From Clostridia bacterium (lineage in GTDB: Bacteria > Bacillota > DSM-521 > Neomoorellales > Neomoorellaceae): 19,839 bases of DNA. The stretch is from the NCBI GenBank assembly GCA_030445875.1, contig JASUSX010000008.1, forward strand, positions 1 to 19,839, given 5' to 3'. This document shows, piece after piece, positions 1 to 18,933 of the stretch (positions are counted from its first letter, which is position 1; every line of letters begins with the position of its first letter). The notes below the pieces were generated by a model. It was not told the DNA's origin. It searched no databases and saw nothing but the letters and a program-made list of their open reading frames with translations. The position numbers and the translations under genes are program-made.

Positions 1-221
1 GCATAGCCGCCGGCCCCATAGGGCCGCAGCCGGTGCGGTTAAGGGAAGTAGAGCAGGTCTTACAGGGCCAAAAGCCTACCCCGGAAGTCATCGACGAGGC
101 GGCCCGGGTGGCGGCGGCAGTGGCGCGGCCGCGGGACTCGGTACTGCGGGGTTCCCGGGAGTACCGGCGGGGGTTGCTGGGGGTTTTAATTCAAAGAAGC
201 TTGAGCGAATTAATTGCCTGA
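1..221 (+). CDS. Molybdenum hydroxylase FAD subunit, C-terminal end (partial)
   Basis: This is the 3' end of a gene that begins before the window. Frame 3 is open from the first base to a TGA at 219-221, giving 72 residues. They start IAAGPIGPQPVR and end in a helical tail with SREYRRGLLGVLIQRSL. The same pattern (GALAPTPLRARQTE, then SQEYRLHLTGVLLKRAFE) closes the full-length FAD subunit at 12882-13730. I therefore assign it to the CO-dehydrogenase flavoprotein C-terminal domain of the xanthine dehydrogenase family. In that family this subunit passes electrons from the 2Fe-2S clusters to FAD and on to an acceptor. The fragment shows that a second molybdenum hydroxylase is encoded just upstream of the window. 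The stop codon is 16 bases before the start of the next gene, so co-transcription is likely. Its substrate and subunit order cannot be seen. Confidence 0.85.
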   Translation, partial: IAAGPIGPQPVRLREVEQVLQGQKPTPEVIDEAARVAAAVARPRDSVLRGSREYRRGLLGVLIQRSLSELIA

Positions 222-237: not shown

Positions 238-1206
238 ATGAAAGCTATCATGGCTTTTTACCAGCGCGAGGGGATATTGGCGAACCTGGTAGAGGATTTT
301 CCCGCTGTGGATTTTGTTTTTCCTCAGACCTGGCAGGAGCTGGCCCGCGAACTGCCCGGCGCGGAAATCCTGGTCATCCTGGGGACCCGTTATAACCCGG
401 AAGTCGCCCGGCTGGTCGTCAGTCTTGGTAAAAGCCTGCGCTGGATACAAGCGACTACGGCAGGGGTAGATGCCTTTTTAATTAACGGCTACCCGGCCGG
501 AGCAACTCTAACCAAGGGTACCGGCATCTGGGATGTAGCGGTGGCAGAACACGCTATAGCCTTTATCCTCGCCTTTAAGCGTAACATTGTGGAGCTGGAG
601 AGGACCAGGCAGGCCCGGCTATGGGACCGGGACAGGCTGTGGGCGATGATGGGCTCCCTGGAGGGCAAAACCGTTGGCATAGCGGGCTATGGTAATATTG
701 GCAAAGAAATAGCGAAGAGGCTCCTGGCCTTTGATGTCAAGATTATTGCCTACGACTTATTGCCTAACGTTAAGGATGAAAAAGTGGCAAGGGTTTATAG
801 TGCCGGCGAACTCATAGCCTTTTTGCAACAAAGCGACATCGTCGTCTTAACCTTACCCCATACGCCGGCCACAGAGTATATCCTCGATGCGGAGCAACTG
901 GCCCAAATGAAGCCCACGGCGCTCTTAATCAATGTCGCTCGCGGCAAGCTGATCCGGGAAAGCGCCCTGGTGCAGGCCTTAAAAACGGGTCAGATTGCCG
1001 GGGCGGGTATTGATGTCTTTGAAGAGGAACCTTTGCCCCCGACCAGTGAGTTGTGGGATTTATCCAATGTCATTCTCTCACCCCATTGCGCGGCGACGGG
1101 GGATAATGACCTAATTAATACCTACCGCCTGGTCAGGGAGAACTTTGCCCGTTACCTCCAGGGGGAGGTACTCCGGAACGTCTTCGATAGCAACCGGGGT
1201 TACTAA
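238..1206 (+). CDS. D-isomer-specific 2-hydroxyacid dehydrogenase
   Basis: This is an NAD(P)-dependent oxidoreductase of 322 residues that interconverts a D-2-hydroxyacid and its 2-oxoacid in the cytoplasm. The Rossmann motif GYGNIG is at residues 150-155. The family's catalytic triad is present: Arg235 in NVARGK, Glu264 in DVFEEEP, and His283 in LSPHCA. Length is normal. I start it at ATG 238, which has AGAGGGA at 222-228, nine bases upstream. An in-frame TTG at 214 would overlap the preceding gene and has no good ribosome site. The residue 46-80 region (VILGTRYNPEV to TTAGVDAF) is the substrate-side domain. It resembles glyoxylate/hydroxypyruvate reductases in general style but does not settle the substrate. 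It leads an operon with the 2-oxoacid:ferredoxin oxidoreductase, so its product probably feeds that enzyme. Family call is secure; substrate is unknown. Confidence 0.92.
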   Translation: MKAIMAFYQREGILANLVEDFPAVDFVFPQTWQELARELPGAEILVILGTRYNPEVARLVVSLGKSLRWIQATTAGVDAFLINGYPAGATLTKGTGIWDVAVAEHAIAFILAFKRNIVELERTRQARLWDRDRLWAMMGSLEGKTVGIAGYGNIGKEIAKRLLAFDVKIIAYDLLPNVKDEKVARVYSAGELIAFLQQSDIVVLTLPHTPATEYILDAEQLAQMKPTALLINVARGKLIRESALVQALKTGQIAGAGIDVFEEEPLPPTSELWDLSNVILSPHCAATGDNDLINTYRLVRENFARYLQGEVLRNVFDSNRGY

Positions 1207-1216
1207 CGCGATCTAC

Positions 1217-1224
1217 GGGGGTGA
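1217..1224 (+). promoter_or_regulatory. Ribosome binding site deciding the porG start
   Basis: GGGGGTGA at 1217-1224 differs by one base from GGAGGTGA and lies 11 bases before ATG 1236. It contains the upstream in-frame GTG (1221) that would otherwise extend the protein by five residues. This favours ATG 1236 as the true start. Confidence 0.5.
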
Positions 1225-1235
1225 CTGAAGGACTT

Positions 1236-1784
1236 ATGCAAACAGAGATACGTTTCCATGGTTTTGGCGGGGAGGGCGTAGTAAGGGCCTCGGAATTACT
1301 GGGTAAGGCGGCGGTGAAGTGTGGGAAGTGGGCGCAGAGTTTCCCGTACTTTGGCACCGAGATTCGTGGGGCGGCCGTCAAAGCCTTTACCAGGGTGGGG
1401 GATAACCCCATCAACCAGCGCTGCTTTATTTATGAACCTGATGTCCTGGTAATCACCAACCGGACCCTGGTCCGTGACCGCGAGGTGTGGCAGGGGCTAA
1501 AAGATAGCAGCAAGGTCCTGATCAATGGAGCCGAACCGGAAGAACTGAAGGTACCCGGGCAGGTTTTCTGGCTTAACGCCACCAGCCTGGGGTATGAGCT
1601 ATTCCAGAAACCGATTGTTAATACCCTCCTGCTGGGGGCCCTGATCAAGCTAACGCAACTCGTTCCTTTAACAGCCCTGGCCCAGGTTATCGAGGAGGAA
1701 TTTACCGGGCGGGCCAGGGAGCTGAATGTTAAAGCCATAAATAAGGGCTTTGCCGCCCTGGAGCCGGGGGGAGGGGGGTTATAA
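1236..1784 (+). CDS. porG: 2-oxoacid:ferredoxin oxidoreductase, gamma subunit
   Basis: This is the 182-residue gamma subunit (domain III) of a pyruvate/2-oxoisovalerate-type oxidoreductase. The glycine-rich GFGGEGV motif is at residues 9-15 and the SFPYFGTEIRG motif at 35-45; both are hallmarks of the family. In the holoenzyme this domain packs against the alpha and beta subunits, which carry thiamine diphosphate and a proximal cluster. The enzyme oxidatively decarboxylates a 2-oxoacid to acyl-CoA plus CO2 and reduces ferredoxin. The stop codon and the next start share one base (TAATG at 1782-1786), so translation is probably coupled to the delta subunit. A G6-A-G6 run just before the stop doubles as the downstream gene's ribosome site. 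The gene order gamma-delta-alpha-beta is that of archaeal and Thermotoga four-subunit enzymes. The symbol is a family name; the true substrate could be a branched or other 2-oxoacid. Confidence 0.9.
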   Translation: MQTEIRFHGFGGEGVVRASELLGKAAVKCGKWAQSFPYFGTEIRGAAVKAFTRVGDNPINQRCFIYEPDVLVITNRTLVRDREVWQGLKDSSKVLINGAEPEELKVPGQVFWLNATSLGYELFQKPIVNTLLLGALIKLTQLVPLTALAQVIEEEFTGRARELNVKAINKGFAALEPGGGGL

Positions 1785-2062
1785 TGGCCGAGCATCCATG
1801 GAATAAAAAACGTCCCTTATCAGCCTGGTTACCCGCAGGGTGGTCCGGGGAAAAGGGTGGCACCTTTAGCCGTAACGAAAAGCCGGTGCTGGATAAAGAT
1901 AGCTGTCACCTGTGCAGTATCTGCTGGCTGTACTGCCCCGACGGCGCTATCCGGCGCGGGCAGGTCTACAGCATAGATTACAGCGTTTGCCGTGGTTGTG
2001 GGGTCTGCGCCGCCGAATGTCCCAGGCAAGCGATTACGATGGTATTGGAGGGTTCAAATTGA
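1784..2062 (+). CDS. porD: 2-oxoacid:ferredoxin oxidoreductase, delta subunit (2x4Fe-4S ferredoxin)
   Basis: This small 92-residue iron-sulfur subunit carries two classic 4Fe-4S motifs. One is Cys41, 44, 47 and 51 (CHLCSICWLYC). The other is Cys69, 72, 75 and 79 (CRGCGVCAAEC). It relays electrons from the thiamine/proximal-cluster site of the alpha-beta subunits to external ferredoxin. The first 40 residues are the usual N-terminal arm of PorD, without a signal peptide. The ATG overlaps the gamma stop by one base. The gene ends in a TTGA overlap with the alpha subunit. Length and Cys spacing are normal. Confidence 0.93.
   Translation: MAEHPWNKKRPLSAWLPAGWSGEKGGTFSRNEKPVLDKDSCHLCSICWLYCPDGAIRRGQVYSIDYSVCRGCGVCAAECPRQAITMVLEGSN
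2047..2052 (+). promoter_or_regulatory. Ribosome binding site for the TTG-started alpha subunit
   Basis: GGAGGG at 2047-2052 lies six bases before TTG 2059. It fixes the alpha-subunit start inside the end of the delta gene. The open frame continues upstream to about 1912, but that part lies inside the delta gene's Cys-coding region and lacks family similarity. Confidence 0.65.
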
Positions 2063-3285
2063 CACGGTGCTTTATTTCCGGCAGCATGGCCGTAGCCGAG
2101 GCCGCCCAGTTAGCCGGGGTGCAGGTCATCGCCGCCTATCCCATAACCCCCCAGACCGGTATAGTCGAAGCCCTGGCCCGTAAGGTGGCGACAGGCCTGC
2201 TGGGGGCGGAGATGATACCGGTCGAAAGCGAACATAGCGCCCTGTCGGCGGTGGTCGGGGCTTCTTTAGCCGGAGCCAGGGCTTTTACCGCTACCAGCTC
2301 CCAGGGCCTGGCCCTGATGCATGAGGTCCTCCCCTATGCCTCGGGTCTGCGTTTACCCATCGTCATGGCGGTGGCCAACCGTTCCCTGGCCTCGCCGGTG
2401 ACCATCTTCAATGACCACCAGGACTCGCTGCCGGAAAGGGATTCCGGCTGGATCCAGGTTTACGTGGAGAATGCCCAGGAAGCCTTCGACTACCTCCTGA
2501 TCGCCTATCGCGTGGCTGAGGATGCCCAGGTACTCCTACCCTTTATGGTCTGCCTGGACGGTTTTTCTGTTTCCCATACCTATGAGCCGGTAGATATTCC
2601 GGCGGTCGAACTGGTTAATACCTTCCTGCCACCCTTCCGGGCTAATTATCCCCACCTGGATCTGGCGGAACCTAAAGTTTTTAACGTTATGGCTTTTCCC
2701 GAACACTTCGAGGAATTCCAGCGCGACAAACACGAGAGCAACAGGAAGGTTCTTGGTTTATTAAACGAGGTTTATGACCATTTTGCCCGGGTTTTTGGCC
2801 GCCGGCGGCAAAACCTGGAGGCCTACCGGGTGGAAGACGCGGAATTAGTTTTAGTGGGGATGGGCTCTATGATGGGAACCGTCAGGGGGGTTGTCGATGA
2901 CCTGCGCGCCAGGGGCCAGAAGGTAGGCATGGTCCGCATGGTCTGCTTCCGGCCGTTACCGGTTCAGGAGATTCAGGCGGTACTCCAGGGAGCTGGGGCT
3001 ATTGGGGTGCTAGATCGGGATGTAAGCTTCGGCGCCGGGGGCATTCTGTACCAGGATATAGCGCGCAGCATGTATAATAGCCAGGGTAAACGGGTACCGG
3101 CCGTCAACTTTATAGCTGGCCTGGGGGGCAGGGACGTCAATCCGGCAACGATCCAGAAGTGTTTCTACCGCTTAGCTTCAGTCGCCAGCAGTGGTTATAT
3201 TACCAGCGCGGAGGAATTGCAATGGCCGGACGAAAACGAGGCCTTGTTAAGGGCTTGGGGGGTGGGCGATAAGCATGGCAATTAG
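2059..3285 (+). CDS. porA: 2-oxoacid:ferredoxin oxidoreductase, alpha subunit
   Basis: This is the 408-residue alpha subunit (domains I and II). Domain I carries AYPITPQT (residues 26-33), the thiamine-pyrimidine-side VESEHSA with Glu58, and TSSQGL (79-84). Arg108 in ANRSLASP is the likely counterpart of the substrate-carboxylate arginine of pyruvate:ferredoxin oxidoreductase. Domain II begins near LVLVGMGSMMGT (263-274). As I recall the structural work, oxalate oxidoreductase has arginine where this protein has Thr30 in YPITP, so an oxalate substrate is unlikely. I start at TTG 2059, which overlaps the delta stop in a TTGA junction and has GGAGGG six bases upstream; the resulting length is normal. 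The 3' end overlaps the beta gene by 11 bases. Pyruvate, 2-oxoisovalerate or another 2-oxoacid all remain possible. Confidence 0.92.
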   Translation: MTRCFISGSMAVAEAAQLAGVQVIAAYPITPQTGIVEALARKVATGLLGAEMIPVESEHSALSAVVGASLAGARAFTATSSQGLALMHEVLPYASGLRLPIVMAVANRSLASPVTIFNDHQDSLPERDSGWIQVYVENAQEAFDYLLIAYRVAEDAQVLLPFMVCLDGFSVSHTYEPVDIPAVELVNTFLPPFRANYPHLDLAEPKVFNVMAFPEHFEEFQRDKHESNRKVLGLLNEVYDHFARVFGRRRQNLEAYRVEDAELVLVGMGSMMGTVRGVVDDLRARGQKVGMVRMVCFRPLPVQEIQAVLQGAGAIGVLDRDVSFGAGGILYQDIARSMYNSQGKRVPAVNFIAGLGGRDVNPATIQKCFYRLASVASSGYITSAEELQWPDENEALLRAWGVGDKHGN

Positions 3286-4210
3286 CTTAAAATCTTTGCC
3301 GGAAGAAGAATTCGTGGCCCCGGGCCGGGGTGGATGTGCCGGTTGCCCGGCGGTTTTGGGGGCCCGCATGGCCAGCAAGGTACTGGGTAAAAACACCATC
3401 CAGGTAACCTCGACGGGTTGTATGTGCGTGAATTATGGCTATTACGCGGCAACGAGGTTTCCCTTTGTCCACACCCTGTTCGAAAACGCCGGGTCCATAA
3501 TTTCGGGAATCGATGCCGCTTTGAAGGCCCGCGGGGAGCGGGAGGGTATTAACCTCTTCGCCTATTGCGGCGATGGGGGTACGGTGGACATCGGCTTGCA
3601 GGCCCTTTCGGGTGCCGTAGAGAGGGGACACCGTTTCCTTTACATTTGTTATGACAACGAGGGCTACATGAATACCGGCACCCAGCGTTCCGGGGCCACG
3701 CCCCCTGGCGCGCGTACCAGCACCACCCCGGTAAGCGAGATCTCCCCTGGCGAGGGGCGGCCCTTCCGGCGCAAAAAGGATATGGTGCGTATTATGGCGG
3801 CCCATGGTATTCCCTATGCCGCTTCGGCTTCCCTGGCCTATCCCCTGGACTACCTGCGGAAGATCAAGAAAGCCATTGCTATCGACGGACCCACCTTTAT
3901 TCACCTGCAGAGCCCCTGCCTGAACGGCTGGGGTTTGGCTGAGAGCCAGGGGGTAGCGGTGGCCCGCCTGGCGGTCGAGACCTGCGTGTTCCCCCTGTAT
4001 GAGGTCGAGGAAGGGAGAGTATTGAACATCAATGTGAAGCCCAGGGAGAAAAAGCCTGTGACCGAGTATCTCCAGGTCCAGGGTCGCTTCCGCCATCTCT
4101 TTACGCCCCGGTGGCAGGGAGAGATCGCTAAATTCCAGGCCGAGGTAGACCGTAACTGGGAGATGCTTTTAGCCTTAGAACAGGCGACAGGTAGCAGGGG
4201 GAATCAATGA
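3275..4210 (+). CDS. porB: 2-oxoacid:ferredoxin oxidoreductase, beta subunit (thiamine diphosphate, 4Fe-4S)
   Basis: This is the 311-residue catalytic beta subunit. The thiamine-diphosphate motif runs from GDGGTVDIG (99-107) to DNEGYMNTG (127-135). The four ligands of the proximal 4Fe-4S cluster are visible: Cys21 and Cys24 in GCAGC, Cys49 in TGCMC, and Cys215 in SPCLNGWG. The 25-residue gap from the second to the third Cys matches that of pyruvate:ferredoxin oxidoreductase. ATG 3275 lies 11 bases inside the end of the alpha gene, with GGGGGGTGG at 3257-3265. The stop overlaps the next start as ATGA (4207-4210). All catalytic elements are intact, so the complex should be active. The substrate pocket cannot be read by eye. 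Confidence 0.93.
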   Translation: MAISLKSLPEEEFVAPGRGGCAGCPAVLGARMASKVLGKNTIQVTSTGCMCVNYGYYAATRFPFVHTLFENAGSIISGIDAALKARGEREGINLFAYCGDGGTVDIGLQALSGAVERGHRFLYICYDNEGYMNTGTQRSGATPPGARTSTTPVSEISPGEGRPFRRKKDMVRIMAAHGIPYAASASLAYPLDYLRKIKKAIAIDGPTFIHLQSPCLNGWGLAESQGVAVARLAVETCVFPLYEVEEGRVLNINVKPREKKPVTEYLQVQGRFRHLFTPRWQGEIAKFQAEVDRNWEMLLALEQATGSRGNQ

Positions 4211-5619
4211 TGGCTAACAAAGCGTTGGCAGCCTTTTATTACCCGGAAGGGATAGCCGTTATCGGCGCTTCGCGCAACCCGGGTAAAGCTGGTTATCAGG
4301 TGGTGAAAAACCTCACTCAAGGCAGCTATAACGGGCCGGTCTATCCTGTTAACCCTGCGGTGGGAGACGTTTTAGGTCATAAATGCTATCCCAGCCTGGG
4401 CAGTATCGAAGGCCGGGTATCCCTGATCATCATTACCACCCCGGCCGACCAGGTGGTGGATATTTTCAGGGAAGCCGCCAGGAGGGGCGATGTGCGAGCG
4501 GCTATAGTAGTTTCGGCCGGCTTTAGCGAGACTAAAGACCCGGCCAAGATAGCCATGGAAAAGGAATTCCTGGCGCTTGCCGGCCAGGCCGGGATCAGGA
4601 TTTTAGGCCCCAACTGTACCGGTGTAATCAACACCGCCAACGGCCTGGACACGACCATCGAACCCACCGTGGCCCAGACCAGGGGTGGGATCAGTATCTA
4701 TTCCCAGAGCGGCGCCATGGGCGGTAGTATCCTGCTCTTTATGGAGGACCAGCCCGTTCCCCTGGGGTTTAATAAATGGACCCACTCCGGCAACACCTGC
4801 GATCTGGACGTCATAGATGTACTGGAGTATTACGGCGCGGATCCTGGCACCGAAACCATACTCCTGTATACCGAAGCCATTAACAAGGGCCGGCAGTTTA
4901 TGGAGCTGGCCCGACAGATTGCACCCCGTAAAACCATCCTGGTCCTTAAGGTCGGCCGGACCGAGCTGGGCGTTAAAGCCGCCTACTCCCATACCGGCGC
5001 CCTGGCGGGGAGCAACCAGGTCTACGAAGCCGCCTTTCGCAAATGCGGGGTCCTGCGGATGCTGAATCTCGAGGAAATGGTGGATACGGCCAAGGCTTTG
5101 GCCATGCAGCCGTTACCCCGGGGGAACAGGATCTGTATTCTAACCGAAGCCGGCGGGCCGGGGACGATAGCCATGGATGAACTGGGCACCAGCCCCCTGG
5201 TCACCCTGGCGGAAATATCCCCCGCCGGGCAACAGCGACTGCATGGGGTAGTACCCCCCATATCCATTGTCTGCCAGCCCCAGGGTTACATTGACATCAC
5301 GGCGGCAGCCATGGAGGAGCACCACGCCCGGGCCCTCCAGTGCGTTCTGGAAGAAGATGGCGTTGATGGCGTGATCTTACTTAGTGTGCCGCCTACCTAC
5401 TTAAAGCCGGAAAGCCTGGCCGGGGCTATCATTGAGGCTGTACGTGGTTATAACAAGCCCGTCCTTACGTGTTTGCTGGCCGGCCAGTGGGTCCGGGAGG
5501 CCCGGCGGATGCTGGAGGCAGCCGGGTTGCCCACCTATGCTACCCCGGACAGGGCGGCGCGGGCCATGATTAATATGGTCCAGAGGCAGGAATATTTACG
5601 GGGTTTAGAGGTGAAATAA
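4207..5619 (+). CDS. acdA: Acyl-CoA synthetase (ADP-forming), alpha subunit
   Basis: This 470-residue protein is the CoA-binding and ligase half of an ADP-forming acetate/acyl-CoA synthetase: acyl-CoA + ADP + Pi gives acid + CoA + ATP. Residues 10-140 form the CoA-binding Rossmann domain (IAVIGASRNPGKAGYQV, then GPNCTGVINT at 134-143). Residues 160-300 form the first ligase domain, with the phospho-acceptor His262 in SHTGALAGS. A second ligase domain follows (LTEAGGPGT at 312-320). The length matches the separate alpha subunits of Pyrococcus-type enzymes rather than the roughly 700-residue fused form common in bacteria. It overlaps the beta subunit of the oxidoreductase by four bases (ATGA). 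ATG 4210, in frame, is an alternative start one codon on. The context says it converts the acyl-CoA made by the oxidoreductase into ATP. Acyl preference is unknown. Confidence 0.92.
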   Translation: MMANKALAAFYYPEGIAVIGASRNPGKAGYQVVKNLTQGSYNGPVYPVNPAVGDVLGHKCYPSLGSIEGRVSLIIITTPADQVVDIFREAARRGDVRAAIVVSAGFSETKDPAKIAMEKEFLALAGQAGIRILGPNCTGVINTANGLDTTIEPTVAQTRGGISIYSQSGAMGGSILLFMEDQPVPLGFNKWTHSGNTCDLDVIDVLEYYGADPGTETILLYTEAINKGRQFMELARQIAPRKTILVLKVGRTELGVKAAYSHTGALAGSNQVYEAAFRKCGVLRMLNLEEMVDTAKALAMQPLPRGNRICILTEAGGPGTIAMDELGTSPLVTLAEISPAGQQRLHGVVPPISIVCQPQGYIDITAAAMEEHHARALQCVLEEDGVDGVILLSVPPTYLKPESLAGAIIEAVRGYNKPVLTCLLAGQWVREARRMLEAAGLPTYATPDRAARAMINMVQRQEYLRGLEVK

Positions 5620-5623
5620 AGGG

Positions 5624-6283
5624 ATGGCGACATATCATCTCCTGGAAACAGAGGCCCGCTCTTACCTCCAGAACAAGGGGATTAATGTACCCCCTTACCG
5701 GCTGGCCCGATCGCCGGTAGAGGCAGTAAAGTATGCGGGGGAATTAGATTATCCGGTGGTCCTCAAGGTGGTTGCGCGGGCCCTGGTCCATAAAAGCGAT
5801 GTAGGCGGCGTTCAAATAAACCTGCAAACCCCGGACGACGTGGAAAGGGCGTACCGGGAGATTATGGCTACCGTTGCTGCCCGTGCCCCTGGTAGCCCTA
5901 TAGAAGGGGTGCTGGTGACCAGGCATATCGCGGATGCTCTGGAGGTAATCATCGGCACCAAAGTCGACCCGCAGTTCGGCCCGGTGATCATGTTCGGCCT
6001 GGGGGGAATATTCGTGGAGGTGTTTAAGGATGTAACCTTTGGTATAGCCCCCCTGAGCTACCGGGAAGCCGAGCAGATGGTCAGGAATATCAAAGGCTAC
6101 CCCCTGATCAAAGGCATTCGGGGCCAATCCCGGAAAAACGAGCCGGCCATAATTGACCTTCTCCTCCAGGTTGCCAACTTAATGGTCCAAAATCGCGAAC
6201 TGCGGGAAATAGATCTCAACCCGATTCTGGTAACCGATCAAGAGGCCCTGATTGCTGATGCCCGCATCCTGCTGGAGGCCTAG
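5624..6283 (+). CDS. acdB: Acyl-CoA synthetase (ADP-forming), beta subunit (ATP-grasp)
   Basis: This 219-residue ATP-grasp subunit is the partner of the alpha subunit just upstream. His56 in VHKSDVGGV matches the second phospho-histidine of the family, which moves phosphate between the alpha histidine and ADP. GPVIMFGLGGIFVEV (120-134) and EIDLNPI (196-202) are the ATP-grasp core and metal-site motifs. Length is close to that of stand-alone beta subunits. ATG 5624 has GAGGTGA at 5608-5614, nine bases upstream and inside the end of the alpha gene; the gap between genes is four bases. The pair should form the alpha2-beta2 enzyme known from hyperthermophilic archaea. No truncation is seen. Confidence 0.92.
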   Translation: MATYHLLETEARSYLQNKGINVPPYRLARSPVEAVKYAGELDYPVVLKVVARALVHKSDVGGVQINLQTPDDVERAYREIMATVAARAPGSPIEGVLVTRHIADALEVIIGTKVDPQFGPVIMFGLGGIFVEVFKDVTFGIAPLSYREAEQMVRNIKGYPLIKGIRGQSRKNEPAIIDLLLQVANLMVQNRELREIDLNPILVTDQEALIADARILLEA

Positions 6284-6295
6284 GGGGCTAGTATA

Positions 6296-7369
6296 GTGAC
6301 GGTAGAAAGTGACATAGCGATCAACATCGGAGAACTGCAGCAGTTCTGCCTGGCGGTTTTAGCCCGGGTGGGCTTCGCCCGCGAGGATGCCTCTATTATT
6401 ACCGATTCTCTCATCCAAGCCGACCTGCGGGGCTTAAATACCCATGGAGTGATGCGGCTGCCTATCTATCTCCAGAGATTGCAGGCCGGCAGCATTAACC
6501 CCGCGCCCAGGTTTACGGTCGTCAGGGAATCGCCCTGCCATGTCCTTATAGACGGCGACAATGGCATGGGCCAGGTATGCGGGACTTACGGGATGCAACA
6601 AGCCCTCCAAAAAGCTGCCGCCAGCGGGATCGGTATCGCCGGGGTAAGGAATAGTAACCACTTTGGTATGGCGGCCTATTATGTCCTGCAGGCCCTGAAG
6701 GAGAATATGATCGGGGTGGCCCTGAGCAACACCGAACCCTTAATGCCTGCCCCCGGGGGGGCGGAAGCGGTGGTGGGCAACAACCCCATCGCTGTGGGTA
6801 TACCGGCGCAGAATTCAGACCCTATTGTCCTGGATATGGCGTGCAGCGCGGCTGCCATAGGAAAAATAATCATCGCCCAGAAAAAGGGGGAGCGGATTCC
6901 CGCAGGCTGGGCTACCGATAGGGAGGGTAACATTACCAGCGACCCCCAGGAGGCCCTGGCGGGGGGCTTTCTCCTGCCTGTGGGGGGGCCTAAGGGCTAT
7001 GGCCTGGCTTTAGTGGTTGATGTCCTGTGCGGCGTTCTTACCGGGGGCGGCTTTGGCCGGCAGGTCATGACCCTTTTCTCTGACTTCCACTTAAAACAAA
7101 ACGTCGGCCATCTCTTCGTAGCGCTAAACCCGGCCCTGTTTTTGCCCTTAGAAAGCTTTTTAGCCAGGGTCGACCTGCTTAGCGCCCAGATCAAAAACTC
7201 AGCGAAGGCTAGAGGGGTAGCGGAGATCTTTCTCCCGGGGGAAATAGAGTGGTCTAAATATAAAGAGTCATTGCGAGGGCAGGTAATTCACCTGCCAGCA
7301 CCAGTGGTTGCCGAGCTTAATTCCTTAGCCCGGGGGTTAGGTATGACCTGTCAACTGGGAATTAATTAA
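6296..7369 (+). CDS. Ldh2-family dehydrogenase (malate / L-lactate / ureidoglycolate / sulfolactate type)
   Basis: This 357-residue NAD(P)-dependent dehydrogenase belongs to the malate/L-lactate dehydrogenase family, a fold unrelated to Rossmann-type lactate dehydrogenases. Motifs seen are DLRGLNTHGVMRLP (43-56) with Arg45 and His50, NSNHFG (119-124) with His122, GNNPIAVGIP (161-170), and GGPKGYGLALVVD (230-242) with Lys233. Family members oxidise a 2-hydroxyacid to a 2-oxoacid; known substrates include malate, L-lactate, ureidoglycolate and (R)-sulfolactate. The GTG start at 6296 has AGGGGG at 6282-6287. The gene lies 12 bases after the acyl-CoA synthetase beta gene, so it is in the same operon. 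Two G7 runs (6755-6761 and 6982-6988) occur without breaking the frame. It probably supplies the same 2-oxoacid pool as the D-specific enzyme at 238. Substrate is not assigned. Confidence 0.88.
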   Translation: MTVESDIAINIGELQQFCLAVLARVGFAREDASIITDSLIQADLRGLNTHGVMRLPIYLQRLQAGSINPAPRFTVVRESPCHVLIDGDNGMGQVCGTYGMQQALQKAAASGIGIAGVRNSNHFGMAAYYVLQALKENMIGVALSNTEPLMPAPGGAEAVVGNNPIAVGIPAQNSDPIVLDMACSAAAIGKIIIAQKKGERIPAGWATDREGNITSDPQEALAGGFLLPVGGPKGYGLALVVDVLCGVLTGGGFGRQVMTLFSDFHLKQNVGHLFVALNPALFLPLESFLARVDLLSAQIKNSAKARGVAEIFLPGEIEWSKYKESLRGQVIHLPAPVVAELNSLARGLGMTCQLGIN

Positions 7370-7503: not shown

Positions 7504-8733
7504 ATGTTCAAGGGTAAGCCCATAGGTAAAATCGCAGCCGGCTTAGGTGCCCTGATTTTCCTCCTGGGGATACTGGCCGGATGCGGCGGTGGCACCAAGA
7601 GCCAGGAAGCTCCCAAACAGGAGGGCGGGAGCCAGAAAAAAGTGGTTAAAATCGCCTTTATTGGCCCCTTGACCGGGCCCAATGCCACGGAGGGGGTAGG
7701 ACCGCGTAACACCTTTGAACTGGCAGTGAACCAGGCCAATAAATCCGGCAAGCTACCCTTTGAGATCAAGTTTCTGGCTTACGATGACGCTTCCAACCCC
7801 GGTACGGCTGCCTCGGTAGCCCAGAAGATAGTAGCAGAACCCGACGTGGTGGCGGCCAGTGGCCACTGGAACACCGCCTGTGCCGAGGCTACCATACCGA
7901 TTTTTAAGGCCGCGGGCATCCCCATGGTTATCTGGGGGGCTATTGGACCCAGCTTGACCAAAGAGGAGAACTTTCCCTATATAACCCGGGTGTGCCCCAC
8001 CTCGGTACAGGAGAATATCCCCCTGGCCGCCTTCGTGATGGACCAGTTAGGGCGGAAGAAGTGGGCCCTAATCTCCAGTACCAGCGTTTATGGCAAAGCT
8101 AATACGGAAGCCTGGCAGGCGGAGGTAAAAAAGCGCTCCGGGGCGGAAATTGTTTCCCTGGATGAGATTACTGACGGTTCGACAGACTTCCGGCCCATCT
8201 TAAGTAAGATCAAGAAATTAAACGTGGACGGTTTGTACTATGGCGGCAATATTATGGAGGCGGCCCTGATCAGGAGCCAGATGAATGAACTGGGGATGAA
8301 GGATATTTTAATGGCCGGTATTTCGGGGATCGTATCCCCCAAATTCATCGAGGTGGCCGGGCAGGCAGCCGAGGGGGTAGTGGTAACCCAGCCGGGTAAA
8401 GAACCCAAGAAGATGCCCGGCGGCAAGGAGTTTATCGAGGAGTACCAGAAGGCGGGTTATAAAGAGCCTTATGGGGCTTACGGGGCTTATGCCTACGACG
8501 CGGCCAATATCATTATTACGGCCTTAAAAGAGGCGGGTACGGACCGCAAAGCCCTGGCCGATAAAATTGGGAAGATCGCTTATACCGGTTTGCTGGGGAC
8601 CACTTCCTTTGATAAAACCGGGCAAACCACCAACTCCCTGTCAACTATCTACGTTATCCAGGATGGCAAATTTGTCGACTGGGATGAATCAAAGTATAAA
8701 ACCGGGGAGAGGAAATTACCCGGCGCGAAATAA
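7504..8733 (+). CDS. livK: HAAT-family ABC transporter substrate-binding lipoprotein (copy 1)
   Basis: This 409-residue extracytoplasmic receptor belongs to the branched-chain amino acid / organic-acid (HAAT) ABC family. A lipoprotein signal peptide ends at the lipobox LAGC with lipidated Cys27, followed by a Gly/Ser/Lys/Glu-rich tether to about residue 46. The type I periplasmic-binding fold starts at VKIAFIGPLTG. The ligand-pocket segment is ASGHWNTACAEATIP (118-132), equivalent to the GH-x-x-S region of LivJ. I start at ATG 7504, with AAAGGAGG at 7486-7493 and a 10-base spacing; the in-frame ATG at 7462 would put 14 polar residues before the signal peptide. It is closely similar over its full length to the second receptor at 16664, including the end GERKLPGAK. 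The ligand is unknown: HAAT receptors bind aliphatic amino acids but also aromatic acids and amides. Confidence 0.93.
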   Translation: MFKGKPIGKIAAGLGALIFLLGILAGCGGGTKSQEAPKQEGGSQKKVVKIAFIGPLTGPNATEGVGPRNTFELAVNQANKSGKLPFEIKFLAYDDASNPGTAASVAQKIVAEPDVVAASGHWNTACAEATIPIFKAAGIPMVIWGAIGPSLTKEENFPYITRVCPTSVQENIPLAAFVMDQLGRKKWALISSTSVYGKANTEAWQAEVKKRSGAEIVSLDEITDGSTDFRPILSKIKKLNVDGLYYGGNIMEAALIRSQMNELGMKDILMAGISGIVSPKFIEVAGQAAEGVVVTQPGKEPKKMPGGKEFIEEYQKAGYKEPYGAYGAYAYDAANIIITALKEAGTDRKALADKIGKIAYTGLLGTTSFDKTGQTTNSLSTIYVIQDGKFVDWDESKYKTGERKLPGAK

Positions 8734-8766
8734 GAGCTGGAACTCAGGCGAGGTGAGCTGTTGGAA

Positions 8767-8807
8767 GGTGGTGGGGCAGGTTCCCCCATGGAACCCGCCC
8801 CACCGCC
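8767..8807 (+). other. Strong intercistronic hairpin between receptor and permease genes
   Basis: Arms 8767-8784 and 8790-8807 pair over 18 positions around the loop CCCAT. There is one A-C mismatch (8778/8796) and one G-U pair. The core is GGTGGGGC and GGTTCC on the left with GGAACC and GCCCCACC on the right. No T-run follows, so it is not an ordinary terminator. It sits 33 bases after the receptor stop. There it could protect the receptor mRNA 3' end or attenuate permease expression, the usual way such operons make more receptor than permease. That role is inferred. Confidence 0.75.
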
Positions 8808-8885
8808 AGCAGCAGGGGGCCATTCATAGCGGCACTTCGCCGTAAGCTGAACGGGAGAAAATAGAGGTGGGCAGGCTTTAATCAG

Positions 8886-8902
8886 AACTGGCGTAGCCAG
8901 TT
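8886..8902 (+). repeat. Short perfect inverted repeat
   Basis: AACTGGC and GCCAGTT form a 7-base perfect inverted repeat around GTA. It lies 12 bases upstream of the heptamer repeat and inside the 228-base gap before livH. It could be a small hairpin or part of a dispersed intergenic repeat. Confidence 0.5.
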
Positions 8903-8913
8903 TCGACAGGTCT

Positions 8914-8941
8914 CCCACATCTCACCTCCCACATCCCACAT
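8914..8941 (+). repeat. Tandem heptamer repeat (CCCACAT)
   Basis: Four contiguous heptamers read CCCACAT, CTCACCT, CCCACAT, CCCACAT. Three are identical and one matches at five of seven bases. They end just before the livH ribosome site (GGGGGT at 8948-8953) and are C/A-rich, so the mRNA here should be unstructured. I see no coding frame across them. Confidence 0.7.
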
Positions 8942-8961
8942 CTATTTGGGGGTCAACTGTT

Positions 8962-9885
8962 ATGGAGCTTATAATCTCACAGATCCTTAACGCGGTAATG
9001 CTGGCTTGCACCTATACCCTGGTGGGGATCGGTTTTTCCCTCTTTTTCGGGGCCATGGATATTGTCGTTTTTTGCCTGGGCGACGTGGCTATCGCCGGGG
9101 CCTTTGCTATTATGGCCCTGAGCACTGTAATGGGGGTTTATGCCAGCCTGAGCGGTATCCTGCCCGCGCCTATCAGCGGTATCATTGTCGTCTTTATAGG
9201 TGCTTGTTTTACAGCCGGCCTGGTCACCTTGATGTACCGGGCGGTCATTGTACCCTTTGAAGGCAAGAATATTAACGCCTCTTTGTTGAGTACGATTGCG
9301 GCGGGCATTGTCATCCGGGAATTGATCGGCCTGTTTTATCCCGAAGGCCGCAACCCCCATGCCTTCCCGCAGCTCCTGCCGGCTGGTTTAATTGGTGACA
9401 ATGTGCTGCTCTCCTGGCGGAATATTATTATCATTGCTATAACATTTATTATGGTTATGCTGCTCTACTGGTTTGTCAACAGGACCAAGACCGGCCTCTC
9501 CATTCAAGCCATATCGCAAAACAAGGAAGCAGCCATTATGGTAGGTATTAACTGGCACCGGATCATCGTTATTACCTTTCTCATTGGCGGCTTTTTATTG
9601 GGTATCGGAGGGTTTTTGACCGCTTCTTATTTTAATTCCCTGCGTTTTGATATGGGGGCCATGTATGGGTTGAAGGGTTTTTGCGTCGCTGTGGTTGGGG
9701 GTCTGGGGAGTATTTACGGGGCCATAGTAGGGGGGCTATTGATTGCTTTTGTTGAGGTCTTTGTAACGGCCTTTATTCCCGGCGGTACGGCTTACAGCAG
9801 TGTAGCCGCGTTCCTGATAGTAGTGTTGTTTATCCTCTTTAAGCCCGAGGGTATTCTGGGTGAAAAGACAGTGGAAAAAGTTTAG
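8962..9885 (+). CDS. livH: HAAT ABC transporter permease, LivH type (copy 1)
   Basis: This 307-residue integral membrane permease has about eight hydrophobic segments, the first from about residue 8. The early GFSLFFGAMDIVVFCLGDVAIAGAF region (24-48) corresponds to the LivH signature near the first helices. The cytoplasmic coupling loop TGLSIQAISQNKEAAIMVGIN (177-197), with Glu189-Ala-Ala and Gly195, contacts the ATPases. It pairs with LivM to form the channel fed by the receptor at 7504. ATG 8962 has GGGGGT eight bases upstream. A 228-base non-coding gap with a hairpin and repeats separates it from the receptor gene. It is strongly similar to the second LivH at 17981, including the end KPEGILGEKTVEKV. 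Confidence 0.93.
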   Translation: MELIISQILNAVMLACTYTLVGIGFSLFFGAMDIVVFCLGDVAIAGAFAIMALSTVMGVYASLSGILPAPISGIIVVFIGACFTAGLVTLMYRAVIVPFEGKNINASLLSTIAAGIVIRELIGLFYPEGRNPHAFPQLLPAGLIGDNVLLSWRNIIIIAITFIMVMLLYWFVNRTKTGLSIQAISQNKEAAIMVGINWHRIIVITFLIGGFLLGIGGFLTASYFNSLRFDMGAMYGLKGFCVAVVGGLGSIYGAIVGGLLIAFVEVFVTAFIPGGTAYSSVAAFLIVVLFILFKPEGILGEKTVEKV

Positions 9886-9912
9886 GGTATTATGGCAGGG
9901 AGGCTCTGAGCA

Positions 9913-11106
9913 GTGGGCAATAAAATATATCGTTATAGCCTGGCAGGATTAAGTACCCTGGGTATCTGTATGGCCCTTTATGTTTGCCTGAGTTCCGCGT
10001 TGCTGGTAGCTTTAATCGTTATAGCCCTGGCCATTGTAATCCTGTCTGTAGGTGAAAGGAAGAATGTAATTGATAAGGTCTATCGATTGATAGGTGACAA
10101 TAAAGCCCTTAACCTGGGGATTATTGCCCTGTTTATCTTACTGTTACCGTTTCTGGTCCAGGGGAACAATTACCTGCTGCATATCGCGATCATGGCCGGC
10201 ATTTTTAGTATTGTTGCCCTGGGCTTAAATTTTCAGATTGGCGGTATAGGGCAGATTAATTTTGCCCCGGCGGCCTTTTATGGTATGGGGGCTTATACCT
10301 CGGCTTTTTTGTCCGTAAAAATGGGCCTTTCTCCCTGGCTGGGGACCCTGTGTGGCTTGCTCATGGCTATTGTCCTGGGGGTGGTGGTGGGCTTTCCCGC
10401 CTTAAAGGCCAGAGGCTATTACCTGTCCCTGGTAACTATTGCCTTACAGATTATATTTACCCTTATGATTGTCAATTCACCCTGGATTGGCGGGCCCAAC
10501 GGCATCCCTGGGATCCCCTCATATCAAATAGGTGGTTTTTCCTTTCGCACGCCGGTGGCCTTAGGGGGTATCCAATTACCCTATCAGGTTAATTTCCTTT
10601 ATTTAGTGTACATCCTCCTGGCCCTTTTTGCTTTGGCCGCCAATCGTCTCTATAACTCCCGTGTCGGCCTGGCCTGGAACGCTATTGAACAGGATCCCAT
10701 AGTGGCGGCCTGCCAGGGTATCAATCTCACCAACACCCAATTGCTGGCCTTTTGCCTGGGGGCTGCCTATGCTGGTATTGCCGGTGCCATATACGGCCAC
10801 TATACCAGCTTTATTGGGGTCGAAAACTTTGATTTCAGCCAATCCCTGATTTTTATTTGCATGGTCATCCTGGGGGGCACGGATAATGTTCCCGGCGTAG
10901 TCCTGGGGGCTGTTTTATTGACGATGATTGATGAGAAACTGCGTGATTTCTCTGGTTACCGGCTGCTCATGTATGGTATTGTGTTAATCATTATCCTCAT
11001 TATCCGGCCGAAAGGTTTACTACCCAAACGTATCCGGGTCTATCAACAAAAGGACAGGTCGGAGTATAGTTCCCATTCGGCGGTAGTAACAGGGGGCAGT
11101 CGATGA
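9913..11106 (+). CDS. livM: HAAT ABC transporter permease, LivM type (copy 1)
   Basis: This 397-residue membrane permease has a hydrophobic N-terminal pair of helices (about residues 8-46). After a polar stretch comes the conserved LivM core from residue 70 onward. Recognisable segments are GLNFQIGGIGQINFAPAAF (104-122), FPALKARGYYLSLVTIAL (161-178), and the coupling loop SRVGLAWNAIEQD..A..QGIN (249-271). The C-terminal 30 residues (after RPKGLLPKRIR) are a polar cytoplasmic tail. The GTG start at 9913 has GGGAGG at 9897-9903. The stop overlaps the LivG start as ATGA (11103-11106). It forms the heterodimeric channel with LivH. Confidence 0.93.
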   Translation: MGNKIYRYSLAGLSTLGICMALYVCLSSALLVALIVIALAIVILSVGERKNVIDKVYRLIGDNKALNLGIIALFILLLPFLVQGNNYLLHIAIMAGIFSIVALGLNFQIGGIGQINFAPAAFYGMGAYTSAFLSVKMGLSPWLGTLCGLLMAIVLGVVVGFPALKARGYYLSLVTIALQIIFTLMIVNSPWIGGPNGIPGIPSYQIGGFSFRTPVALGGIQLPYQVNFLYLVYILLALFALAANRLYNSRVGLAWNAIEQDPIVAACQGINLTNTQLLAFCLGAAYAGIAGAIYGHYTSFIGVENFDFSQSLIFICMVILGGTDNVPGVVLGAVLLTMIDEKLRDFSGYRLLMYGIVLIIILIIRPKGLLPKRIRVYQQKDRSEYSSHSAVVTGGSR

Positions 11107-11870
11107 TGGGCGTCTTAAGGACCGAAAGGGTGTCGATAGACTTTGGGGGACTCAGGGCCGTTGATAACCTGGATTTTCAAATCGGCGATGAAATAGTAGG
11201 TCTCATCGGGCCCAACGGATCCGGCAAGACTACGTTCTTAAATATTATTAGCGGGATCTATAAGCCTACCCGGGGAAGGGTTTACTTCAACGGGGAAGAC
11301 ATTACCAGCCTGCCGCCCCATATGATCCGCGCCAAGGGTATTGCCCGCACTTTTCAAACCAACAGGCTATGCTTAAACTTAAGCATCCTCGACAACATGT
11401 TGCTGGGCCTTTACTGTCAACAGCAAACAACCTGGTGGCAGGCTATTTTTATGAGCTCCTCCAGCTCCCGGGAGATTAAACTGGGTATCGAAAAGAGCCT
11501 GGCCATCCTCGCCCATTTTAACCCCGCGCTTATAACCAGGGCCTATGAGCCGGTAATGACCATCCCTTTAATTGATCGTCGGCGCATTGAGATCGCGCGG
11601 GCTGTGGTCGGTGATCCCCGGCTGGTCTTACTTGATGAGCCGACGGCGGGCCTGAATTCCGAAGAAACCAACCAGATGATTAACGATATAGCGAAGATTA
11701 GAAGGCGTAGTTCCCAGATCAGTATTATTATCATTGAGCATGATATGACGGTAATATCCCGGATAACCGAGAGGGTGGTTTGCCTTAATGCGGGGCAGAA
11801 GATCGCCGAAGGAACTTTTAGTGAAGTGGCGCGTAATGAACTGGTACGTACGGCATATCTGGGGGGCTGA
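11103..11870 (+). CDS. livG: HAAT ABC transporter ATPase, LivG type, with degenerate signature motif
   Basis: This 255-residue nucleotide-binding subunit has Walker A GPNGSGKT (36-43), the Q-loop in ARTFQ (Gln85), Walker B LVLLDE (174-179) with the catalytic Glu, and the H-loop His213 in IIEHD. The C-terminal AYLGG is typical of LivG. The ABC signature, normally LSYGxQRR or LSGGQ just before RxEIARA, reads IPLIDRRRIEIARA from residue 154, so the conserved Gly-Gly/Gln core is missing although the frame is intact. The partner LivF has a normal signature. One of the two composite ATP sites, that using LivF Walker A and LivG signature, may therefore hydrolyse poorly. The start ATGATG overlaps the LivM stop; the second ATG at 11106 is equally possible. 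Family assignment is secure. Confidence 0.92.
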   Translation: MMGVLRTERVSIDFGGLRAVDNLDFQIGDEIVGLIGPNGSGKTTFLNIISGIYKPTRGRVYFNGEDITSLPPHMIRAKGIARTFQTNRLCLNLSILDNMLLGLYCQQQTTWWQAIFMSSSSSREIKLGIEKSLAILAHFNPALITRAYEPVMTIPLIDRRRIEIARAVVGDPRLVLLDEPTAGLNSEETNQMINDIAKIRRRSSQISIIIIEHDMTVISRITERVVCLNAGQKIAEGTFSEVARNELVRTAYLGG

Positions 11871-11873
11871 GTT

Positions 11874-12590
11874 ATGCTCGAGCTGAAAAATGTTAGCACC
11901 CGGTACGGGCAAATACCTATTTTAATGCAGGTTAACATCCAGGTAGCCAGGGGAGAAACGGTATGTATCCTGGGGGCCAACGGGGCGGGCAAGACTACGC
12001 TATTAAAGACTATCCTGGGGATGGTTAAACCCACGGCGGGGGAAATATACTTTAATAAGCAGCGGATTGATTCCCTACCTCCCCATAACATTATTGCCCA
12101 GGGTATTGCCATTGTGCCCGAGCGGGAGGGTTTGTTTCCCAAATTAACGGTGGAAAATAACCTTTTAATGGGGGGGTATTACGAACAGGATCCAGGGAAT
12201 ATCCTGGCCAGGTTAGCCGAGGTATACCAGGCATTTCCCTGGCTCCCCCAGAGGTTAAAACAAAAGGCGGGGACCTTGAGCGGTGGGGAGCGGAAGATGC
12301 TGGGTATTGCCCGGGCCTTGCTGGCCAATCCCCAGTTGCTACTCATGGACGAACCGTCTTTAGGCCTGGCCCCGGCGACTATAAATGAGGTCTTCAATGT
12401 TATCACCCGGATCAAAAGGGACAAGGAGATTACTATTCTTCTAGTGGAACAAAATGCCCGCAAAGCCCTGTTAGTGGCGGAACGCGGCTATGTCCTACAA
12501 AAAGGGGCGGTCATTTTAGAGGGCCCGGCTGCTGCCTTGCAAGAAAACGAGATTGTTAAGAAGTCCTACCTGGCTGCTGGTTCCTTCTAA
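11874..12590 (+). CDS. livF: HAAT ABC transporter ATPase, LivF type
   Basis: This 238-residue ATPase has Walker A GANGAGKT (34-41), signature LSGGE (135-139), Walker B LLLMDE (155-160) and the LivF-typical VEQN (191-194), where Gln193 stands in the H-loop histidine position. It pairs with LivG to power LivH-LivM. It begins three bases after the LivG stop, with GGGGGG at 11861-11866. It is the last gene of the first transporter operon: the stop at 12588-12590 is followed by a promoter-like element and a strong terminator within 120 bases. Length and motif order are normal. Confidence 0.94.
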   Translation: MLELKNVSTRYGQIPILMQVNIQVARGETVCILGANGAGKTTLLKTILGMVKPTAGEIYFNKQRIDSLPPHNIIAQGIAIVPEREGLFPKLTVENNLLMGGYYEQDPGNILARLAEVYQAFPWLPQRLKQKAGTLSGGERKMLGIARALLANPQLLLMDEPSLGLAPATINEVFNVITRIKRDKEITILLVEQNARKALLVAERGYVLQKGAVILEGPAAALQENEIVKKSYLAAGSF

Positions 12591-12616: not shown

Positions 12617-12645
12617 TTGACATGACACTTATTATGGCCTAAAAT
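12617..12645 (+). promoter_or_regulatory. Strong sigma-A-type promoter match upstream of a terminator
   Basis: A perfect -35 box TTGACA (12617-12622), an ideal 17-base spacer and TAAAAT (12640-12645, five of six) form the best promoter match I see in the window. Transcription would start near 12652. It points towards the molybdenum hydroxylase genes, but an intrinsic terminator begins about 13 bases into the predicted transcript. Confidence 0.65.
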
Positions 12646-12664
12646 AATAACTAGGCAAAGGAGT

Positions 12665-12706
12665 CCATAGGATCTTGTTGGAAGATCCTATGGGTTTTTA
12701 TTTTTT
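12665..12706 (+). terminator. Intrinsic transcription terminator / possible attenuator
   Basis: CCATAGGATCTT (12665-12676) and AAGATCCTATGG (12682-12693) form a perfect 12-base-pair stem with the five-base loop GTTGG. It is followed by G, T5, A, T6 (12694-12706). It ends the liv operon 75 bases after its last stop. Because a promoter match starts between livF and this stem, it may also stop most transcripts initiated there and so act as an attenuator for the downstream operon. Confidence 0.9.
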
Positions 12707-13730: not shown

Positions 13731-13744
13731 GGGAGGGTAAGGCA

Positions 13745-14236: not shown

Positions 14237-14252
14237 AGGGGGCTAGGTGGAG

Positions 14253-17887: not shown

Positions 17888-17917
17888 GGCGATCGTTAAA
17901 AGCCAGGTATGAACCGG

Positions 17918-17960
17918 CTTACTGGCTGGTAGCAGTACTATCCTGTTACCAGCCAGTAAG
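17918..17960 (+). other. Strong intercistronic hairpin between second receptor and permease genes
   Basis: CTTACTGGCTGGTA (17918-17931) and TACCAGCCAGTAAG (17947-17960) are perfectly complementary over 14 bases. The stem extends inward by a G-U pair and three more pairs to a 7-base loop. No T-run follows; instead the livH ribosome site AAGGAGG (17966-17972) comes six bases later. It holds the same place as the hairpin at 8767-8807, with an unrelated sequence. It probably stabilises the receptor mRNA or limits permease translation (inferred). Confidence 0.8.
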
Positions 17961-17980
17961 GATTTAAGGAGGCCATACAG

Positions 17981-18901: not shown

Positions 18902-18933
18902 TAGGTTTCGCCTTAAGGGAGGCACGGAGTAAA

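Follow-up and report, generated by a model that had tools for sequence, protein, structure and literature searches.

A 2-oxoacid:ferredoxin oxidoreductase and ADP-forming acyl-CoA synthetase cassette with variable hydroxyacid enzymes in a Neomoorellaceae bacterium

Which substrate would be served by a compact run of genes that seems to hold every step from a 2-hydroxyacid to ATP, and which part of such a run is a conserved unit? These questions are raised by positions 238–7369 of the window, the 19,839-nucleotide stretch of DNA analyzed here (contig C158:1–19839, JASUSX010000008.1), which is part of a metagenome-assembled genome (MAG) of 1.57 Mb in 163 contigs with a completeness of 58.8%; 22 genomes of its order were examined. 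The run consists of eight intact genes on the forward strand, encoding an NAD-type D-isomer-specific 2-hydroxyacid dehydrogenase (D2HDH), the gamma, delta, alpha and beta subunits of a 2-oxoacid:ferredoxin oxidoreductase (OFOR), the alpha and beta subunits of an ADP-forming acyl-CoA synthetase (ACD) and an Ldh_2-family 2-hydroxyacid dehydrogenase (Ldh2). The conserved unit is OFOR plus ACD, and the hydroxyacid enzymes are a variable add-on. As to function, we lean toward a catabolic cassette for substrate-level phosphorylation, predicted to end a pathway that degrades heterocycles or organic acids.

Recurrence and gene content of the cassette

A gene-neighborhood search, as recommended in an earlier sequence-only reading of this region, showed that the order OFOR gamma-delta-alpha-beta followed by ACD alpha and ACD beta recurs in four genomes besides that of the window, which is more than expected by chance. 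Among the 80 of 89 loci kept from an OFOR alpha scan of GTDB 220 (one genome per species), tblastn placed both ACD subunits behind the OFOR at two, situated in a Desulfosporosinus MAG (L009; alpha 57% identical) and in the Peptococcaceae genome UBA5767 (L010; 55%). When at most the five best candidates per genome were scored across 398 genomes of the phylum, OFOR beta reached E ≤ 1e-90 in at least four, namely the window's own genome, G386 (83% identity), UBA5767 (G203; 66%) and G130 (64%), and D2HDH reached E ≤ 1e-75 in at least two, the window's own and G386 (66%). Within the order, OFOR beta was found at 1e-90 only in the window's own genome among the 22, and the class search comprised the same 22. 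Searches centered on G386, G130 and G203 yielded no further carriers in orders or classes of only 20, 3 and 10 genomes, and PLSDB contained no plasmid copy of OFOR beta at E 1e-80. The carriers found are thus five: the window, G386, UBA5767, G130 and L009.

Hydroxyacid enzymes are found at three of these five loci, as D2HDH with Ldh2 in the window, D2HDH with a LarA-family protein in G386 (its best model, malate racemase LarAH6, scores 407 bits against a cut-off of 500) and an Ldh2 (52% identical) with a nickel-pincer isomerase in UBA5767 (group 22, 454.9 bits, cut-off 400). Ldh2 adjoins the cassette downstream in the window and UBA5767, and D2HDH adjoins it upstream in the window and G386. 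Each of the three differing pairs could serve both enantiomers, which is our best argument, one from design, for the plausible use of a hydroxyacid of either hand. At 78 other OFOR loci that served as a control, D2HDH had a match at two, Ldh2 at none, and LarA and GlcD together at one (L073). The claim of the sequence-only reading that the operon constitutes a complete 2-hydroxyacid-to-ATP pathway therefore stands for the gene set of this operon and falls for a conserved module. The locus L073, from a Nitrospiraceae MAG, has its LarA-type and GlcD-type matches near a POR and represents another hydroxyacid-OFOR neighborhood.

All families named in that reading are indeed present, intact and in the order given, as judged by Pfam and NCBIfam models and by alignments. 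D2HDH (238–1206; PF02826, 195.2 bits, cut-off 25.1) contains R234, E262, H282 and D172, Ldh2 (6296–7369, GTG start; PF02615, 409.5 bits) contains H50, R54 and H122, and the ACD contains H262 in alpha and H56 in beta, residues whose roles we take to be catalytic. ACD alpha (4207–5619; PF13607, 154.8 bits; PF13380, 96.2 bits; PDB relatives 2csu and 4xyl) combines Succ_CoA_lig and CoA-binding domains, and ACD beta (5624–6283; PF13549, 244.9 bits) is an ATP-grasp protein related to 4xyl_B, the beta subunit of an NDP-forming acyl-CoA synthetase (2.1e-60). With these domains and a histidine in both subunits, the assignment as an ACD holds; the acetate-specific model TIGR02717 scores 427.6, below its cut-off of 567.15. 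OFOR gamma (1236–1784; TIGR02175, 179 bits, cut-off 81.1), delta (1784–2062; two 4Fe-4S motifs; TIGR02179, 83.3 bits, cut-off 60.05), alpha (2059–3285, TTG start; PF01855 and PF17147) and beta (3275–4210; PF02775, with its cysteine motifs in place) all exceed the cut-offs of these models and together make up a four-subunit enzyme of the POR/VOR type. Its beta subunit scores 27.5 with the subfamily model TIGR02177 (cut-off 261.9), and both pyruvate synthase equivalogs stay below their cut-offs (NF040682 PorA_Arch, 488.5 of 550; PorB, 348.2 of 405).

The dehydrogenases are likewise placed by family. D2HDH reaches no NCBIfam equivalog cut-off, its nearest PDB relatives being glyoxylate reductase and PGDH, and Ldh2 is closest to malate dehydrogenase (1v9n) and L-sulfolactate dehydrogenase (2x06). 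Two specific assignments of Ldh2 were rejected, as ureidoglycolate dehydrogenase (AllD; TIGR03175, 247.9 against a cut-off of 496.2) and as L-sulfolactate dehydrogenase (ComC, with SlcC-type racemization; NF040650, 298.2 against 500).

With starts picked by eye from ribosome-binding sites, the successive junctions along the run measure +29, -1, -4, -11, -4, +4 and +12 bases. The description as overlaps or gaps of a few bases thus fits six junctions and fails for the first, and the gene overlaps make translational coupling likely within the OFOR and into the ACD. The extent of 238–7369 is right for the genes and wrong as a start, because the forward-strand gene for a CoxM/XdhB-type molybdenum (Mo) hydroxylase FAD subunit (3–221; C-terminal 72 amino acids, cut by the contig end; PF03450, 57.9 bits, cut-off 25.5) stops 16 bases before D2HDH. 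On the other side, Ldh2 is followed by an ABC importer of the HAAT type, with a gap in between for which the site scan lists neither promoter-like nor terminator-like sites. The run thus starts before position 238 and may also extend past 7369.

The OFOR clade and its substrate pocket

The relationships of the OFOR were analyzed with adjacent pairs of alpha and beta open reading frames (ORFs) resembling those of the window (E ≤ 1e-25; alpha 340–480 and beta 250–450 amino acids). After exclusion of loci in which these genes were truncated, absent or less similar, 103 pairs were left, or 99 after de-duplication. In a quick tree of these 99 rows (LG+G4), the OFORs of the five cassettes group together in a single clade with an SH-aLRT support of 100 and a stem of 0.47; the branches just outside it have supports of 65 and 36, which leaves the nearest relative unfixed, and a long-branch warning applies elsewhere in the tree. 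The beta subunits of all five members share the motif GCMCVNYGY and a two-residue deletion, a signature seen in none of the other 94 rows. Similarly, an ACD alpha gene lies within 4 kb downstream of all five clade OFORs as opposed to one of 51 testable others (50 have 3 kb or more of sequence downstream and no ACD alpha in it; 43 more are too short to tell). The single OFOR outside the clade with an ACD, L142, comes from a genus mate and is accompanied by a fused ACD. The one-sided hypergeometric probability of this association, 1.6e-6, is purely descriptive because the rows are related.

Structural work offers a frame for this signature. One report states that Thr31 and Arg114 of the Desulfovibrio africanus enzyme (DaPFOR) recognize the pyruvate carboxylate, that Leu121, Ala219, Ile843, Asn996 and Met1202 line the pocket and that mutating the equivalents of Ile843 and Asn996 alters specificity in a Sulfolobus OFOR (PMC5020499). 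HMMER alignments indicate that the window OFOR keeps the Thr (alpha 30), the Arg (alpha 108) and the Asn (beta 133), with T30 and R108 aligning to Thr31 and Arg114, and that it has Val at the positions of Leu121 (alpha 114) and Ile843 (beta 52); the mapping rests on these sequence alignments, and a numbering offset of one is inferred. Positions fixed in the clade and shared by at most 3% of the other rows include alpha 114, beta 51, 54 and 56, and the deletion. A structural model of OFOR beta (mean pLDDT 78.5) has as its best match 9bt4_C from the POR of Methanosarcina acetivorans (TM 0.82). Its pLDDT falls below 50 at residues 57–60 and 131–136, in active-site loops, so that the model does not show whether the deletion lies in the active site.

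The M. acetivorans enzyme, a four-subunit POR, is also the best match in sequence (9bt4; alpha 1.1e-100, beta 8.1e-85), with the Thr and Arg kept, whereas V114 in alpha and GCMCVNYGY and the two-residue deletion in beta set the window's clade apart. Second among the homologs of both subunits is the oxalate oxidoreductase of Moorella thermoacetica (5c4i), which carries YPIRP where the window OFOR has YPITP. An assignment as oxalate oxidoreductase was rejected on this motif and on scores below the cut-offs (alpha 311.1 of 500, beta 260.9 of 590). The enzyme thus appears to be a POR-type 2-oxoacid oxidoreductase with altered pocket-adjacent residues, for which pyruvate is a possible, though not an assured, substrate.

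A proposed function and its alternatives

In the catabolic cassette toward which we lean, the pathway would start with import and attack by a Mo hydroxylase on an N-heterocycle or a related organic acid. D2HDH and Ldh2, two unrelated NAD(P)-linked enzymes, would convert both enantiomers of a small 2-hydroxyacid to a single 2-oxoacid, most likely pyruvate or a close small homolog, which the POR-like OFOR would turn into acyl-CoA, CO2 and reduced ferredoxin, and the ACD would then convert the acyl-CoA to the acid and ATP. OFOR and ACD would constitute a conserved engine and the hydroxyacid enzymes exchangeable entry steps, and reductive ring steps may draw on the reduced ferredoxin. The supply of ATP and reduced ferredoxin by OFOR and ACD is proposed by analogy with the reductive urate pathway, which ends in pyruvate and whose authors suggest that the clostridial ring reductase may have reduced ferredoxin as its donor (PMC12507026).

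The proposed start of the pathway draws on the genomic surroundings. Mo hydroxylases of the XDH type lie near the cassette at four of the five loci: in the window (3–221 and 12882–16538), in G386, in UBA5767 (L124, 16345–19959) and in G130 (L160, 171–3794, about 10 kb from the OFOR), the latter two identified by BLAST. The fifth, L009, contains upstream a PreA-like DHO_dh/ferredoxin protein, resembling dihydropyrimidine dehydrogenase, that is 66% identical to its counterpart in G386, which itself scores 289.6 with the PreA model (cut-off 335). In the control set, CoxL, CoxS and CoxM matched at 1e-8 at none of the 78 other OFOR loci, most of them from other phyla and with a median length of 14.4 kb, a comparison limited by the fact that L010 itself would show none at comparable reach. 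The importers differ, with HAAT systems in the window and G386 and TRAP systems in L009, UBA5767 and G130; the latter were named by eye and share 50–62% identity for two of their three subunits. The suggested pairing of the operon with Mo hydroxylases and HAAT importers is therefore borne out at four of five loci for the former and is not constant for the latter.

Several points weigh against this proposal. XDH-type genes are common in the order, with several candidates per genome, so that nearness proves little. The 59.8 kb of G130 contain no homolog of D2HDH, Ldh2, LarA, nickel-pincer-22 or GlcD at E ≤ 1e-5, and the same five queries found no match at this threshold in L009, a 9.5-kb contig that ends about 210 bases past ACD beta; the hydroxyacid step is therefore not a constant part of the system. 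NAD-linked oxidation of lactate-like compounds is uphill, so the dehydrogenases could act as reductases. The pocket-adjacent residues are unlike those of POR, and pyruvate may thus not be the substrate. Finally, substrate, direction and transcription are all predictions from the genes.

It is tempting to go further. The OFOR clade, marked by its beta signature and alpha Val114 and followed by a split ACD in each of the five known cases, would then yield ATP and recycle ferredoxin at the end of an anaerobic pathway not described so far. XDH-type Mo hydroxylases, a ferredoxin-type PreA-like reductase and a DUF6282 hydrolase would cleave a heterocycle and give a chiral 2-hydroxyacid; the OFOR would not have pyruvate as its substrate, and the ferredoxin that it reduces would drive ring reduction. 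We put this forward tentatively, as a possibility that has the odds against it.

A simpler explanation, which we also judge unlikely, is a plain operon for D- and L-lactate, converting lactate via pyruvate and acetyl-CoA to acetate and ATP, with the Mo hydroxylases incidental. Its precedent is the luo operon of Desulfovibrio vulgaris (DVU3025–3033), whose nine genes, including those for D- and L-lactate dehydrogenases (LDHs), PFOR, Pta, Ack and a lactate permease, form one transcript; six species have a putative ADP-forming synthetase in place of Pta and Ack (PMC4481167). The logic is shared, with two stereospecific LDHs, a PFOR and an acetate- and ATP-forming step in one operon, and OFOR alpha and beta have PorA and PorB as their top-scoring models and keep the Thr, Arg and Asn of the pyruvate site. 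The gene content of the window fits the combination of two stereospecific dehydrogenases and a PFOR-type enzyme, but the dehydrogenase families differ: luo has FAD/Fe-S and LldGH-type dehydrogenases, a one-gene PFOR (DVU3025) and its permease, whereas the window has NAD(P)-type D2HDH and Ldh_2 proteins, a four-subunit OFOR of another clade and a split ACD, in a neighborhood of HAAT or TRAP importers and Mo hydroxylases. The lactate explanation is further at odds with the clade-wide beta motif and deletion beside the Ile843 equivalent and the Val at the Leu121 equivalent, unlike nearly all other rows, as well as with the Mo hydroxylases at four loci. Moreover, no lactate permease was recognized among the window's ORFs, inspected by eye without a permease profile on a contig cut upstream.

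Another explanation would run the dehydrogenases in the opposite direction: pyruvate or a similar oxoacid released by ring cleavage would be partly oxidized by OFOR and ACD, with D2HDH and Ldh2 disposing of NADH by forming hydroxyacids. The equilibrium favors reduction, and D2HDH has close PDB relatives that bear reductase names. The end of the reductive urate pathway in pyruvate (PMC12507026) would also suit this scheme. However, a pair of opposite hands, or an enzyme with a racemase, fits the use of a racemate as in luo, while an electron sink needs only one enzyme, which makes this direction doubtful.

Least probable are two further schemes. An assimilatory direction, with ACD forming acyl-CoA from acid and ATP, OFOR carboxylating it to a 2-oxoacid and the dehydrogenases reducing this to a hydroxyacid, would be compatible with the reversibility of the OFOR and ACD reactions, but the importers, Mo hydroxylases, amidohydrolases and carbamate kinase nearby look catabolic, and we consider it quite improbable. 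A mixed operon, in which OFOR and ACD have one function and the two dehydrogenases act on unrelated substrates, would suit the two of five loci at which hydroxyacid enzymes were not found but is very improbable, given that the dehydrogenases, where present, join the cassette directly.

The ACD had been taken to stand in for the usual phosphotransacetylase/acetate kinase route, a view weakened by the window's own genome, which encodes an AckA above cut-off (492 bits, cut-off 293.4), as do 17 of the 22 genomes of the order in total (Pta was not searched). ACD-alpha-like proteins occur in nine of the 22 (E ≤ 1e-30). ACD is thus an addition to acetate kinase, not its replacement. The same genome has a second version on contig C1 (L144), a parallel in favor of the proposed cassette that is built from other parts: a GlcD-type FAD protein with its Fe-S partner, a LarA-like protein, an OFOR of the Ior-like kind, a fused ACD (34% identical to the window ACD), an aminotransferase and LivGF. 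Contig C151 (L143) has an OFOR adjoining an Ldh2 (42%). C151 also carries, as named by eye, a UbiD-like gene, an MmgE/PrpD protein and Tct-type transporter-like genes.

The system is less new than the sequence-only reading had suggested, because a D/L-lactate-to-ATP operon with putative ADP-forming variants has been published (PMC4481167); its operating principle is known, and its combination of parts is a variant of a known operon type. In Peptostreptococcales, OFOR genes also lie near PF13607 ADP-forming acyl-CoA ligases, yet the accessible part of that work describes clusters of the indolepyruvate/VOR type in amino-acid fermenters and shows no pair of D2HDH and Ldh_2 (PMC13285125). The combination of NAD-type dehydrogenases, this OFOR clade, a split ACD and Mo hydroxylases did not appear among the open-licence papers that the searches listed. 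The main interest lies in the specificity of the OFOR clade and in its association with genes of the heterocycle type, suspected in the earlier reading and supported by the comparison. If correct, the proposed function would join two subjects that are mostly treated separately, Mo-hydroxylase-dependent heterocycle breakdown in anaerobes and ferredoxin-reducing 2-oxoacid oxidation with direct ATP formation, provide a concrete candidate for an OFOR with a specificity not yet assigned and offer a gene set (OFOR signature, ACD, DUF6282, PreA-like and XDH-type proteins) for finding such pathways in uncultured Bacillota.

Neighboring genes and regulatory sites

In G386, the cassette lies in a larger gene island. 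A dihydroorotase homolog, an aspartate-carbamoyltransferase homolog, carbamate kinase and aspartase score above their cut-offs there, accompanied by a malic-enzyme-like protein (below cut-off), a PF00291 protein, a hydantoinase-like enzyme, PF01180 PreA-like reductases and an M20 hydrolase that passes one YgeY cut-off (357.9 of 321) and fails the other (230.6 of 321.5). The reductive urate cluster shares with this island XDH homologs, PreA-like, M20 and hydantoinase-like proteins, carbamate kinase and PF00291, and of that set only XDH-type genes were recognized in the window. An identification as a urate cluster was rejected, since the SsnA, YgfK, D-hydantoinase and YgeX models remain below their cut-offs; the one SsnA-like protein of G386 that was examined scores 221.4 with the marker TIGR03314 (cut-off 455.5). 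An orotate-fermentation pathway built on the dihydroorotase, carbamoyltransferase, carbamate kinase, aspartase and malic-enzyme-like genes is kept only as a lead, and a literature search that combined all its terms gave no paper. The contig of the island (C99, 75 kb) is rich in amidohydrolase-type genes and holds several Mo hydroxylases of the XDH type. A DUF6282 protein, of a family without known function, is shared at 60–61% identity by G386 (L122, 2484–3461) and UBA5767 (L124, 15337–16299); placed beside an XDH-type Mo hydroxylase and OFOR/ACD, it is a candidate ring-opening hydrolase.

In the window, all further genes lie on the forward strand. The first HAAT importer (7504–12590) comprises a binding protein (PF13458; start chosen by eye, the mechanical ORF start being 7462), LivH, whose NCBIfam matches are all below cut-off, and LivM, LivG and LivF, named by eye from their translations without a profile. 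An XDH-type Mo hydroxylase follows (coxMSL, 12882–16538), with FAD (12882–13730), Fe-S (13745–14236) and Mo (14247–16538) subunits; NCBIfam models, run on the Mo and FAD subunits, all score below equivalog cut-offs, and the Fe-S subunit was named by eye and BLAST only. The second HAAT importer (16664–19839; binding protein, LivH and a LivM cut by the window end) was named by eye. The window thus contains two similar HAAT sets, which follow the OFOR/ACD operon and the Mo-hydroxylase operon, respectively. G386 carries the same HAAT set as importer 1 and a CoxMSL trimer 81–85% identical to that of the window. Between its cassette and HAAT genes lies a transposase-like gene, recognized by eye (L122, 15997–17373).

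With the best two candidates per genome scored, the window CoxL has matches at E ≤ 1e-200 in at least six of the 398 genomes, including its own. G012, G006 and G129 (L153, L154 and L155) share the order CoxM-CoxS-CoxL-binding protein-LivH-LivM-LivG-LivF-dihydroorotase-like. In G012 and G006 it continues with a carbamoyltransferase homolog, carbamate kinase and a further gene of the XDH type; in G129, the sequence runs out at an XDH-type gene. The order is not present around the CoxL of G325 (53%), and G386 has no HAAT genes in the middle of it. The window breaks off inside the CoxMSL-HAAT order, which predicts the genes beyond its end and supports the assignment of the contig to its genus. The CoxMSL-HAAT-dihydroorotase cluster looks like a catabolic operon for heterocycles that yield carbamoyl phosphate.

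A search for a riboswitch that might name the substrate gave only seven weak RNA-family matches (three miRNA, two lncRNA, one snoRNA and one sRNA family), none of which reaches the gathering score. The window has 16 promoter-like sites, compared with 13.8 (sd 3.8) in shuffled sequences, and 31 terminator-like sites, compared with 25.1 (sd 5.4); as these counts are close to those of the shuffles, only one site merits weight, a strong intrinsic-terminator-like hairpin of 18 pairs with a T run (12659–12699, forward strand; terminator scan). It is the sole long hairpin of this kind in the window and lies 3' of LivF, separating the upstream run from coxMSL. A near-perfect sigma70-like promoter (11 of 12 positions) is located 13 bases ahead of it, between LivF and coxM, and the whole element (12617–12699) could possibly act as an attenuator of coxMSL.

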